Virus record (IMG/VR): IMGVR_UViG_3300031758_000073
Span: 1 to 61,155 of that record
Direction: 5' to 3' (one strand)
From: a virus
Length of the DNA: 61,155 nt
Below the pieces are notes generated by a model. It made no database searches. It had not been told where the DNA came from and saw nothing but the letters and a program-made list of their open reading frames with translations. Positions 807 to 61,081 of the stretch are shown here, piece after piece. How positions within the stretch are numbered: position 1 is the first letter of the stretch; every line of letters starts with the position of its first letter. The translations under genes were made by a program, and so were the position numbers.

Positions 807-2432
807 TTATACTTGATCGAGATCACCGACAAGAATCTTGCCGTAGAACTCTGGACGCACAATCTTCTTGGCGTAGCGAGTCATCACACCACGACGTGGG
901 GTGAAGTTCACTGGATCATAGACCAATGGGGTTTGTACGAGTGGGATGTATGGAGCATACACTGCACCGGTTTCGAGGAAGTTGTTTCCACGGAAACCAA
1001 CCAAGATGGTGTTTTCAACCATGTATGGGTTCTTGTAGACTTGGAAACGACTTGCGAAGTTACCAACCTTGCTTACACCCATTGCGAACTTGGCGCTGTC
1101 ACCATCAGTGTTGACAACGAAGCCTGGAATTGACTCCAAGATTGTTGCAACGTCTGGTGAACAGACGAGGAAGTTAGCACCACCACGGAGGGTCAATTGG
1201 TGAATCTTGTTGCTGACCTTTTGGATCTTGTTACCAAGAGTTTGGAACCAAGTTGACTTGGTGTAGTATCCACCGGTACCAGCGGTTGTGGTATCAGTGA
1301 TGACTCCACTGTCGCTGATTTCACGGTTGATCTTAGCGCTCCAACGTGAGGTGGTTACGCTTGGAACGTTGGTGATCAACATGTCAAGGATTTCGAGGTC
1401 GATTTCCATTGATACGTACTCACTCAAGAGAGCAGTCAATTCTGCCTCTGCGTCGATGCTGTGGTAAGCATTCAAGTCTTGAGCAAGTTCAGGTGTCCAA
1501 ACGGCCTTCAACTTACGGGTCTTGGCAACGATTGGCTCACTCTTCAACTCAAGGTTAACTTCAGGGATACCGATTGAGCTCAAGCTGTCGGTTGTGGTCT
1601 TGTCTTCGAAATCACCACGATTGCTGTCCTTAGGTTGTACACTGTAGTTAACGGTCAAGCTAGCAGAAGCTGGGTTTGAACCGGAAACAACGAAGGTTAC
1701 TTCTGAACCATTGATTGAGGTCAATGATGGGAAGTAGGTGTTGATGCTACCTGCGGTGATGGTGAATGAACGAACACCGTTGGCGTCGAACACGTTACCA
1801 GCAGCACTTGAAGCACTGTACAAGTTGGTGGTGGTCAAAGTGAAAACTTCGCCAGCAGCAACAGATGCACTGAAGGTTGCGTCATAGTTAACGCCACTCA
1901 AACTTGACACAGCAGCGCGGGTAGCGGTGATGTGATTGATTGATTGATCGTTAATTGAGTAACCGAAACGACCTGCACCGTAGAGACCACCAGTTGCACT
2001 ATCGGTTGAACCGAGCTTGGTGCCGGTACCGCCGAAGAGTGAACTATAGTTGTTTGATGCATCCTTAGTGAAAGCACCGTTGTTGGTACCATACTTGAAG
2101 TCTAAATAGAAGATAAGACCGCTTGGGAGGTTCATTGGTTGAACGCTCACAAACTCCTTAGCAGCGATTTCAGCAAACACACGGCGAACGAGTGGGAGAG
2201 CAACGCCTGCCCATTGTTCACTGTTTGATGAAGTACCGGTTGCGGTAGCTTCGTCAAGAAGTTGCTTTGCTTGGTTTTCAAGAAGGATTGACATGTTTGC
2301 CTTCTCGACGCCATTTAGGCCTTCGAGCAAACCAGTTTGATCCCACTTTGATTGTAGTCCACGGGTCTTGGCCATAAGCTCTGCCTGTGGATTCATATTT
2401 GTTGTTAGAAGTGACTTTACATCAGCACTCAT
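807..2432 (-). CDS. Major capsid protein, gp23-like
   Basis: This 541-residue protein builds the icosahedral head lattice. It matches T4 gp23 in several stretches: the N-terminal ENQAK-containing helix region, VRRVFAEIAAKEFVSVQPMN (compare VRRAIPNLIAFDICGVQPMN of T4), the AKTRKLKA...ELAQDL block near residues 305-320, and the C-terminal VYAPYIPL...RRGVMTRYAKK. Residues about 150-285 form a Ser/Thr/Ala-rich insertion-like domain with beta-type sequence, differing from T4. The start has AGGAAT upstream. It directly follows the scaffold-like gene, as in T4 (22 then 23), and is closed by a strong terminator. The N-terminus is probably trimmed by the prohead protease. Confidence 0.95.
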   Translation of the reverse strand: MSADVKSLLTTNMNPQAELMAKTRGLQSKWDQTGLLEGLNGVEKANMSILLENQAKQLLDEATATGTSSNSEQWAGVALPLVRRVFAEIAAKEFVSVQPMNLPSGLIFYLDFKYGTNNGAFTKDASNNYSSLFGGTGTKLGSTDSATGGLYGAGRFGYSINDQSINHITATRAAVSSLSGVNYDATFSASVAAGEVFTLTTTNLYSASSAAGNVFDANGVRSFTITAGSINTYFPSLTSINGSEVTFVVSGSNPASASLTVNYSVQPKDSNRGDFEDKTTTDSLSSIGIPEVNLELKSEPIVAKTRKLKAVWTPELAQDLNAYHSIDAEAELTALLSEYVSMEIDLEILDMLITNVPSVTTSRWSAKINREISDSGVITDTTTAGTGGYYTKSTWFQTLGNKIQKVSNKIHQLTLRGGANFLVCSPDVATILESIPGFVVNTDGDSAKFAMGVSKVGNFASRFQVYKNPYMVENTILVGFRGNNFLETGAVYAPYIPLVQTPLVYDPVNFTPRRGVMTRYAKKIVRPEFYGKILVGDLDQV

Positions 2433-52749: not shown

Positions 52750-53149
52750 TGGTGGACGTGGGCGGAGTCGAACCGCCGTCTTCAAAAATCGTTATACATC
52801 AGACTACACGCTTAGATACTTTTCGTTACGTCAACACACATCTAAAATATCAAACTGTGTATGATCGGTGTTTGGAAAGATTTAAATGACAATCCCAAAC
52901 GTATTGTCATCGTGCCTGATAGTTTACACTCATCACAATTATCAGACATCATTGCAATGAATGTGCAGCAACTTAGGCTGCGAGTGCCAAACCACTCTTC
53001 TTAGAGGTCTTCTTAGAAGTGAAGTTGTAGCTGATTACCTTGCTCTTCTTATTAGCAGTTAATTTTTTGATAGATGATTTAAGAGGCCAACTATCGTCCT
53101 CTACGTGCCTAACGTACACTAACTCCTGAATCGAAACCAGTACACGCCC
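52750..53149 (-). ncRNA. ssrA: Phage-encoded tmRNA (transfer-messenger RNA)
   Basis: This 400-nt RNA rescues ribosomes stalled on broken messages. The tRNA-like part joins both ends: the 5' GGGCGTG pairs with the 3' CACGTCC, which is followed by ACCA, and the T arm reads GGCGGTTCGACTCCGCC. Near the 5' end ACTGGTTTCGAT matches the conserved tmRNA start. Pseudoknot 1 is visible (AGAGG...CCTCT interleaved with GATAG...CTATC), followed by AAAAAAT and the resume codon GCT. The tag frame runs 27 codons, ANKKSKVISY... to ...KKSGLALAA, and stops at TAA. The LALAA end is a ClpXP-type degron. Bacterial tags are usually shorter, near 10 residues. CCA is encoded. SmpB is not in this window. Confidence 0.95.
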
Positions 53150-53164
53150 ATGAAAAAGAACACA

Positions 53165-53172
53165 AATAAATA
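53165..53172 (-). promoter_or_regulatory. TATTTATT element ahead of the tmRNA
   Basis: The minus strand reads GATATTTATTTGTG, ending 15 nt before the mature 5' end of the tmRNA. If it is a phage promoter of the TATTTATA class, the tmRNA would be made late. Confidence 0.4.
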
Positions 53173-53802
53173 TCAGATAAATTCTCTCTGATATCCAAAT
53201 TCATTAAATACATCTTTGTATAGATCCCACACAAAATCAAGTTCTTTTTGAGTATAATAACTTTTATAATCTGTCATTTGTGAATTCTTCGGATCCCGTC
53301 GCAATTCAAACGTTTGAGAATTGCCTTCAAACTGATAATTATTAGTAGTCAATCCATTTACCAAAGTGTTTGTGTGCGGATCTGTAAAATCTAAAAATGG
53401 CAATTTGTGCAAATCTTCAATCATATGTTCAACACGTATGTAAAAATCAGGTTTACTACTGTGTCTAATGATAAAATGTTCTTCAGACCTATCGTTACAC
53501 TCTTCATTAAGATATTCTGAAAATGGTTTTTTTGCAACATAATTTCCAGTTTCTGGATCCTCTCCAAAATGACGTAAATGCCATGTTGATACTATTTTTG
53601 CATAAGGATTTCTTATATTGCATACTAACGTATAATTATCACACCCCGGTGGGATATCTGTTTCGTGTGTATATGACTCAGTAACCGGTATATTTAATCT
53701 ATAATTATAGAATTTATAGTATGCAAGAATTTCAGATACAGATCGACTAGCAGTTCGGGTTGGTAACCACCATACTACTTTTAAGTCGTGATTGACATTC
53801 AT
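53173..53802 (-). CDS. Sulfotransferase-family protein
   Basis: The protein is 209 residues. VVWWLPTRTASRSVSEILA near the N-terminus is a PAPS 5'-phosphosulfate loop (P-T-R-T-A-S-R-S), and TLVCNIRNPYAKIVSTWHLR is the 3'-phosphate motif with the conserved R-N-P-Y and S. Near the C-terminus YYTQKELDFVWDLYKDVFNE matches the usual end of membrane-type sulfotransferases. It would transfer sulfate from PAPS to a sugar or protein. No signal or membrane helix is seen. It lies beside the tRNA, methyltransferase and fucose genes, suggesting surface-glycan modification. Confidence 0.85.
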   Translation of the reverse strand: MNVNHDLKVVWWLPTRTASRSVSEILAYYKFYNYRLNIPVTESYTHETDIPPGCDNYTLVCNIRNPYAKIVSTWHLRHFGEDPETGNYVAKKPFSEYLNEECNDRSEEHFIIRHSSKPDFYIRVEHMIEDLHKLPFLDFTDPHTNTLVNGLTTNNYQFEGNSQTFELRRDPKNSQMTDYKSYYTQKELDFVWDLYKDVFNEFGYQREFI

Positions 53803-53810
53803 TATAATTT

Positions 53811-53884
53811 TGGAGCGGGTAGCCGGAATCGAACCGGCACATCGACCTTGGCAAGGTTGCAGGCTACCACTACATCATACCCGC
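53811..53884 (-). tRNA. tRNA-Gly (GCC)
   Basis: Acceptor GCGGGTA/TACCCGC, anticodon loop TTGCCAA, T arm CCGGTTCGATTCCGG and encoded CCA. The anticodon stem has an A-C mismatch, also present in tRNA-Gly (TCC) at 56718. Confidence 0.9.
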
Positions 53885-53896
53885 GCTCTTTAAATT

Positions 53897-53971
53897 TGGT
53901 GGACCGTAAGGGAATCGAACCCTTCCCTAAAGCTTGCAAAGCTCCTGTGCTACCACTATCACTAACAGCCC
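53897..53971 (-). tRNA. tRNA-Ala (TGC)
   Basis: Acceptor GGGCTGT pairs with ACGGTCC (two wobbles); anticodon loop TTTGCAA; T arm GGGTTCGATTCCC; CCA is encoded. Confidence 0.88.
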
Positions 53972-56891: not shown

Positions 56892-57425
56892 TCATGTTTT
56901 ATTTTGAACATTATATCCATTATGTTCAAGAACATCTTTACACAATTTAATAAAATCGTCAAGCAATAAATCTCCTTTTGCCATATTAGCATCTTTACAC
57001 GCTAAACCCAAATTGTCAATATCACATCCACCACCTTTAGATACTGGTATTATGTGATCACAATTGTAAGTTTTTGGCTCTAAAAGATCTATTTTTCTGC
57101 CTGTCAAATAACATACCGGATTGTTTGTTATTTTTGTTTCAAATTCTTTAATTGAAAAGTCTAAACTTTTTCGTTTTCCTTTTCCTATTCGTCTACCATT
57201 TACAAAACTAAAGTTATCTTTTTTCCGTCTCAATATACCTTTTAAGGTTTTTCTATTTGATTTGTTTCTTGTTTTTGTTTTTTCTTTTTGACCAACACCA
57301 CAATGGTATGAAATAGTTCCTTTTGAACACTTCAACAACTTTTGTATCTCTTTGTACGATTTGCCTTGTTTTCTCAATTCTAATATTAATGGTTTCACAT
57401 TAATATATAGTTTGGGTTCGAACAA
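56892..57425 (-). CDS. HNH endonuclease with N-terminal helix-turn-helix
   Basis: The protein is 177 residues. Residues 12-45 form a helix-turn-helix (ELRKQGKSYKEIQKLLKCSK, GTISYHCGVG) similar to resolvase or homing-enzyme DNA-binding parts. A Lys/Arg-rich linker follows. The HNH core is CYLTGRKIDLLEPKTYNCDH (H of the DH pair) with IIPVSKGGGCDIDNLGLACK (N) and AKGDLLLDDF. It is free-standing and lies between two tRNA-Ser genes, typical of mobile endonucleases. It may help spread this tRNA segment between phages. Confidence 0.88.
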   Translation of the reverse strand: MFEPKLYINVKPLILELRKQGKSYKEIQKLLKCSKGTISYHCGVGQKEKTKTRNKSNRKTLKGILRRKKDNFSFVNGRRIGKGKRKSLDFSIKEFETKITNNPVCYLTGRKIDLLEPKTYNCDHIIPVSKGGGCDIDNLGLACKDANMAKGDLLLDDFIKLCKDVLEHNGYNVQNKT

Positions 57426-57828: not shown

Positions 57829-57838
57829 ATAAAAATTT

Positions 57839-58003
57839 TCAATGAACACCAAGAAGATCCAAATACTTTGTCTCCGGTTGTGGTAGAATTTCATCTGCCA
57901 CAGTCATAATTGCCTTATAGTAAGCATATGACGGATACTGTTCCGTAATCTTCATGTTCTTAAGATACTCGAAAAGAACTTTATTGTCAACATCAATTTC
58001 CAT
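57839..58003 (-). CDS. Small hypothetical protein inside the tRNA group
   Basis: The protein is 54 residues: MEIDVDNKVLFEYLKNMKIT, then EQYPSYAYYKAIMTVADEIL and a short tail. Acidic and helical, no known motif. AAAGAAAGAAAA precedes the ATG. It sits 10 nt from tRNA-Pro and 20 nt from tRNA-Val and likely shares their transcript. Confidence 0.6.
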   Translation of the reverse strand: MEIDVDNKVLFEYLKNMKITEQYPSYAYYKAIMTVADEILPQPETKYLDLLGVH

Positions 58004-61048: not shown

Positions 61049-61081
61049 AATTGTTTTGTTAAAGAACTAACTAAAAATCCG

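Follow-up and report, generated by a model that had tools for sequence, protein, structure and literature searches.

Our analysis indicates that the window, a linear virus record from IMG/VR spanning 61,155 bases, encodes a tmRNA that is probably functional, is a heritage of a T4-like phage lineage, and would depend on alanyl-tRNA synthetase, EF-Tu, SmpB and proteases of the host. The gene belongs to a phage family whose tags range from 19-20 residues with a charge of -5 to 27-30 residues with a charge of +7 or +8.

The original prediction, made from the letters of this DNA, placed a complete one-piece tmRNA at 52750-53149, and both an ARAGORN call and a match to the Rfam tmRNA family bear it out. 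The RF00023 covariance model matched this interval at 374 of 374 model positions, scoring 142.4 bits where the gathering threshold is 47 (E = 8.1e-56), and the whole-RNA fold beat 100 of 100 shuffled sequences (z = -3.5). The 27-residue tag with seven lysines, the GCT resume codon and the encoded CCA are all present as described, on the minus strand, which the prediction had not given. The parts of the gene and its immediate neighbors are listed in Table 1. In alignments, the Lys-rich 12-nt repeat part of the window tag is an expansion relative to relatives with 22-residue tags.

Table 1. Features of the tmRNA locus in the window.
Feature	Position	Strand	Evidence
Complete one-piece tmRNA (ssrA), 400 nt	52750..53149	-	ARAGORN; RF00023; covariation
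Tag frame, GCT resume codon to TAA, ANKKSKVISYNFTSKKTSKKSGLALAA	52973..53056	-	ARAGORN; in-frame purifying selection (family); capsid-like codons
12-nt tandem repeat TCTAAGAAGACC TCTAAGAAGAGT, Lys-rich part of tag	52994..53017	-	Direct reading; alignments
Pseudoknot PK1, directly ahead of resume codon	53069..53102	-	Stem pairing and covariation
Acceptor stem, 5' strand, bearing G3 of G3-U70	53143..53149	-	Pairing and covariation
Acceptor stem, 3' strand, followed by encoded ACCA at 52753-52750	52754..52760	-	ARAGORN; pairing
T arm	52761..52777	-	Compensatory changes, fully paired
GTTCTTT, boxA-like leader motif	53155..53161	-	Motif recurrence in family leaders
TATTTATT, promoter-like motif	53165..53172	-	Enrichment; recurrence in leaders
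209-aa gene, between tRNA-Gly and tmRNA	53173..53802	-	Adjoins tmRNA in 5/5 related loci found
tRNA-Gly(GCC) and tRNA-Ala(TGC), upstream of tmRNA	53811..53971	-	Also in many related loci

The record carries terminase, portal, major capsid and baseplate genes along with 13 tRNA genes. This phage-gene context, together with recurrence of the tmRNA in related phage records, answers the worry raised with the original prediction that the contig might be a bacterial mis-assembly. The 209-residue protein encoded next to the tmRNA had no PHROG or Pfam match. The tRNA array also contains a gene for an HNH endonuclease with a helix-turn-helix-like part (56892-57425, minus strand), a possible homing endonuclease.

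Scanning viral contigs with the first 20 nucleotides of the tmRNA (the 5' 20-mer) returned 15 stretches, all 15 with a tmRNA; 14 carry a family tag and one (L010) carries another tag. Scanning for DNA encoding the family tag core, V[VI][SA]Y[DN]F[ST], returned 95 stretches with 84 new loci. At 56 of these ARAGORN called a family tmRNA, and at 27 more the tag was readable; the remaining one (L241) matched by chance. In total ARAGORN gives 82 locus entries, with some records contributing two loci, and these hold 56 unique family tmRNAs. ARAGORN missed 27 of the 83 true tag loci (L212-L295), so ARAGORN-based counts of phage tmRNAs may be low; our tree and selection tests use the ARAGORN-found subset. 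The core also turned up by the two routes that did not use it: 11 of the 12 unique RNAs reached through the 5' end have it, as do all 7 reached through the terminase. A search with the large terminase protein (TerL) matched more than 600 stretches, of which we took the top 80; seven of these records carry a tmRNA, all of them among the 9 that are at least 60 kb long, and none of the 71 shorter records does.

The closest isolates are Microcystis phage Mel-JY01 and Flavobacterium phage immuto (Immutovirus), with 53-54% identity in TerL and 56-57% in the major capsid protein, but neither has a tmRNA, and we found none in Rhodothermus phage RM378. Given its absence from these three isolates and from two of the nine long TerL-related records (among the best 80 of more than 600), the tmRNA is not essential for such phages generally. 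Mel-JY01 (L020, PP395634.1, 22183-22410) encodes ribosomal protein bS21, as do 0 of the 18 other records searched. Shine-Dalgarno-like motifs precede 8 of 45 window genes (3 of 45 in the control stretch), compared with 1 of 50 in immuto (control 14), 22 of 50 in S-RIM14 (control 5) and 27 of 40 in Mel-JY01 (control 2). The window is thus unlike S-RIM14 and Mel-JY01 in Shine-Dalgarno use, a difference that does not name the host, and psbA, found in 0 of 19 records, does not fix the host phylum either.

The original prediction left open whether the gene was captured from the host or adapted to the phage. Our results favor adaptation and speak against recent host capture, with no donor match in the genomes searched and with divergence along a phage lineage. 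A host ssrA gene picked up as a passenger would have some precedent: prophages integrate at tmRNA genes and can contain fragments of ssrA (PMC9004378). Among 84,980 bacterial and archaeal genomes, represented by contigs of 3 kb or more, the 5' 20-mer had one match (L044), which ARAGORN did not recognize as a tmRNA, nor did Rfam in the 1.5-kb stretch around it; no tmRNA in that collection shares the 20-mer, which excludes a near-identical donor there and leaves room for a distant one. A blastn search of phage sequences with the tmRNA region and a tblastn search with the tag gave no match, although both may have left out very near records. The common neighbors and long divergence of these genes among phages also argue against recent capture, as does selection on both RNA and tag, which is unexpected for a passenger, and we regard it as scarcely credible. 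The distribution and gene content indicate that the tmRNA is inherited within a T4-like phage lineage and is no stray host gene.

We examined pairing and covariation in 28 family RNAs, chosen by hand at about one per tag type, against a structure read from one row and comprising the acceptor stem, T arm, long stem P2, PK1 and a post-stop hairpin. In this structure 95.7% of cells are paired, and 179 cells have changed on both sides, compared with 50.5 in shuffled alignments (0 of 500 shuffles reach the observed value) and at most 40 with partners slid; kinship of the rows inflates both the counts and the shuffle contrast, and the slid-partner control retains that kinship. Both stems of PK1 are paired in 28 of 28 rows, with both-side changes in 5 of 10 pairs. 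Such changes also occur in 3 of 7 acceptor-stem pairs, and the fully paired T arm has compensatory changes at 5 of 5 pairs. The middle of P2 is the weakest part (88.7% of cells paired). The alanine identity pair G3-U70 is invariant, a G-U in all 28 rows. The tmRNA structure is under selection in this phage lineage, and the compensatory changes and invariant G3-U70 support function of the RNA.

The tag peptide is likewise kept by selection in the phage family. For 23 distinct 20-residue tags, pN/pS is 0.38 in the tag frame (bootstrap range 0.22-0.59) and 0.96 and 1.05 in the shifted frames; a second run with other stop handling gave 0.88 and 0.86 for the shifted frames, with wide ranges. Many family rows were found by the tag-core DNA pattern and kept by a core regular expression, so that conservation of the core is partly by construction. 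We therefore repeated the test on nine of these tags, those found through the 5' end, the terminase or the neighbor gene, and obtained 0.24 (0.10-0.44) in frame against 1.63 and 1.85 in the shifted frames, and 0.28 in frame with the core codons removed.

The tag is also written in the codons of the major capsid gene. We scored synonymous choice, given the amino acid, as capsid-like versus other-gene usage, and found a score of 0.64 for the window tag and 0.67 for the window's major capsid gene; of 15,508 stretches of equal size from the window's other genes, none reaches the tag. When halves of the capsid gene were held out, the held-out half scored 0.53 and 0.63 and the tag 0.60 and 0.59, and both times 0 of 15,216 stretches reached the tag. 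All lysine codons are AAG in both the tag (7/7) and the capsid gene (26/26). In a related phage scored with its own capsid gene (G020), 0 of 17,318 stretches reach the tag; a further relative (G067) was left out, as its capsid gene did not turn up in the sequence examined. The effect is weaker in four acidic-tag phages, where the tag is matched or exceeded by 2.3, 3.3, 5.7 and 6.8% of stretches, and tags score 0.00-0.27 against 0.40-0.50 for the capsid genes. Other stretches of the window tmRNA score low (mean -0.80, highest 0.25). The major capsid gene itself (807-2432, minus strand) shows extreme codon bias, with 118 of 163 counted NNY codons ending in C compared with about 25% elsewhere. 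The simplest reading is that the capsid-like codons of the tag reflect translational selection, as judged from codon choice, and a constraint from RNA structure may be an alternative cause. Low in-frame pN/pS and capsid-like codons together support translation of the tag, which we infer takes place.

These observations bear on whether the RNA could instead be a decoy that titrates SmpB or blocks host trans-translation. A role of this kind has been proposed for the tRNA-like-domain-only RNA of mycobacteriophage DS6A (PMC4131195, PMC11915505), and it would fit with our finding no phage SmpB. The smpB search suggested with the original prediction detected no such gene in either of two sets, of 9 and of 18 records; IMG/VR records may be incomplete, and an SmpB gene could lie outside them. 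Yet a decoy would need neither tag frame, PK1 nor resume codon, all of which are kept, nor a tag under selection with capsid-like codons, and we consider it very improbable. We return to a working tmRNA as the preferred reading.

Extant tags can be ordered by charge from AEDNVVSYDFSYDEVVALAA (-5) through AEDNVISYNFTSRDAVALAA (-2), ANKKSKVVSYDFTSREAVALAA (+2) and ATKKSKVISYNFTSRKEVALAA (+4) to the most basic, the window tag (+7) and ATKKSKVISYNFTSKKSSKTSKKSGLALAA (+8); this series is an ordering of extant sequences, distinct from a reconstructed line of descent. In a tree built without the tag, 12 of 12 Lys-rich RNAs form one group (support 100/99), and within it the six RNAs with 27-30-residue tags nest as one group (100/97). 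This nested position fits derivation of the long basic tags from shorter ones. The tree is unrooted, with little support at its deep fork (61/85), and the FTSR tags (-2) are not neighbors of the Lys-rich group in it; that acidic tags preceded basic ones is on this tree the likelier but unproven order. Apart from VA in L005 and AV in L294, the tags keep the ...AA end.

The window tag is long without being the longest, as the same family has tags of 30 residues and ARAGORN reports tags of 31 and 32 residues on phage contigs. Among 39 non-family tags called by ARAGORN at loci of the 5'-end scan, nine have at least 20 residues, eight of those nine being acidic, and three have at least 27. Because equally long tags occur on other phage contigs, tag length alone is not unique. 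Two phage-contig tmRNAs (L050, L087) have 31-residue acidic tags, ADNIVDMAPSLAEAD(E/A)ILAK..., and make up a separate long-tag group. On a different phage contig, a GOLLD RNA (L010:2499-2883, 204.9 bits) lies near a tmRNA with a 32-residue tag.

What the lysines do, if anything, can be read in several ways. To neutral drift we give slightly less than an even chance: replication slippage of the 12-nt unit would have produced a Lys-rich expansion with no effect of its own, and only the reading frame, the core and the ...AA end would matter. Being a reading of the insert, it does not conflict with a functional tmRNA. It agrees with the obvious tandem repeat, with the 27- and 30-residue tags of close relatives, which differ by repeat units, and with the H. 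pylori tag, which can be cut to two residues with ribosome rescue intact (PMC2584231). It is harder to square with expansions that are in frame and mostly K, S or T (with one F in L291), with a charge of +7 or +8 in all four distinct tags of 27-30 residues, and with the capsid-preferred form of every lysine codon in the window tag. With six unique RNAs, selection inside the insert is poorly measurable.

The charge reversal could also re-target tagged proteins to a different protease or adaptor or change the rate of degradation, perhaps after a host switch. The shift from -5 in acidic tags to +7 or +8 in one well-supported clade favors this, and the long M. florum tag, of different length, is read by Lon and not ClpXP (PMC8138137). 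The positively charged RKH motif of ClpX reads Ala-Ala (PMC9601184), so nearby lysines could matter. We nevertheless think re-targeting unlikely, since the ...AA end is so widely kept, SspB was found in 0 of 20 records, and ClpP genes were found in one of 20, a 303-kb record. Rather doubtful, too, is that the phage operates a private tagging channel, in which a tmRNA with high-expression codons tags heavily and the basic 27-30-residue tag gives proteins a fate that host tagging does not. On balance, we see in the basic insert most probably a spacer that is tolerated or gives a mild advantage.

The original prediction took the preceding TATTTATT to suggest phage-timed expression, and the part that holds is its membership in a promoter-like motif enriched between genes on the coding strand. 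It lies on the tmRNA strand, 16 nt ahead of the tmRNA 5' end. On the minus strand, 19 of 28 matches to T[AT]TTTAT[AT] are intergenic, where 8.6% of the sequence lies; 2.8 are expected under a first-order model of the same DNA, and 0 of 300 simulations reach 19. The plus strand also shows some intergenic excess (6 of 23 matches, P = 0.012). In family leaders, TAnTTAT occurs at -40 to -12 in 14 of 51, compared with 1 of 51 in a control stretch, and in 10 of 11 in the Lys-rich clade. Sigma-70 promoter-like sites were no commoner than in shuffled sequence. TATTTAT[AT], whose reverse complement reads as the T4 late motif, also stands just upstream of several minus-strand genes (e.g., 11007, 23413, 43071 and 49749) and is a likely phage promoter.

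Between TATTTATT and the tmRNA sits GTTCTTT, which resembles the boxA of rRNA leaders. Of 51 leaders, 40 have a motif of this type in the last 30 nt before the tmRNA (21 of the 32 unique ones), compared with none at -60 to -30 and one at -90 to -60. BoxA-like leaders GTTCTTTAACAA and GTTCATTGAAAA directly precede tRNA-Met and tRNA-Pro (61049-61067 and 57829-57847, minus strand), or 2 of the 13 tRNA genes. A common antitermination leader for the stable RNAs of this phage is possible from these motifs.

We infer the following course for charging, SmpB use, tagging, proteolysis and benefit. The tmRNA would be transcribed during infection, probably from a phage promoter, and charged with alanine through its G3-U70 pair. 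Because no SmpB was found in the records searched, the RNA presumably uses host SmpB. The charged tmRNA would enter ribosomes stalled on broken or stop-less mRNAs, where alanine and the encoded tag would be added and the ribosome released at the TAA stop. ClpX reads a terminal Ala-Ala (PMC9601184), and since the tag keeps its hydrophobic ...LALAA end, tagged proteins would most likely be broken down by a host protease of the ClpXP type. For the phage, the gain would be recycled ribosomes while host RNA decays and mRNAs are cut.

Some Mycoplasma and Mesoplasma ssrA tags are, like the window tag, unusually long, at 27 residues. These mollicute tags differ in being encoded by a cellular gene and read by Lon with ClpXP absent (PMC8138137), whereas the phage tag keeps ...LAA. 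The window RNA shares its tRNA-like domain, PK1, resume codon, tag frame, CCA and hydrophobic ...LAA end with the bacterial one-piece tmRNA (RF00023), in which the commonest tag has 10 residues (PMC11915505), compared with the phage-borne, basic 27-residue tag here; the family core sets the phage tags apart as well. Phage tmRNAs as such are already known. They occur in Bacillus phage G, mycobacteriophages Bxz1 and Wildcat, and others (PMC4131195), have also been reported for Streptomyces BE phages, and make up 79 of the tmRNA database's 97,179 unique sequences (PMC11915505); tmRNAs and SmpB have been noted in huge phages (PMC7162821). Like the window tmRNA these are phage-carried, several of them by phages with many tRNA genes. 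The OM43 phage Melnitz differs in having a two-piece tmRNA, under a glutamine riboswitch, and its authors conjectured that phage tmRNA maintains the hijacked machinery or tags host proteins (PMC9004378). The phages just named belong to another lineage, and the graded, charge-reversed tags described here come from a comparison within the present family. In one 484-kb phage (LR756508.1), we observed a 112-nt tmRNA-like element (L026:1501-1612; 414804-414915) that matches both ends of RF00023 at 58 bits, is not called by ARAGORN and resembles the DS6A-type RNA; a longer tmRNA match lies at 92434-92880 of the same genome.

In a literature search that scarcely covered subscription journals, we found no account of tag evolution in such phages, and as far as that search goes the charge reversal and the capsid-like codons are new. 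Phage tmRNAs are known largely from annotation. The present lineage supplies many related copies in which both RNA and peptide tag are selected and the tag is written like a capsid gene. Its natural tags, from acidic with 20 residues to basic with 30, are matched reagents for asking whether a virus alters the effect of ribosome rescue on proteins. If the phage does run a tagging channel of its own, the fate of the tag would be another protease, slower decay, or acidic or nucleic-acid partners, and it would represent a viral takeover of ribosome rescue in which the tag evolves with the host.
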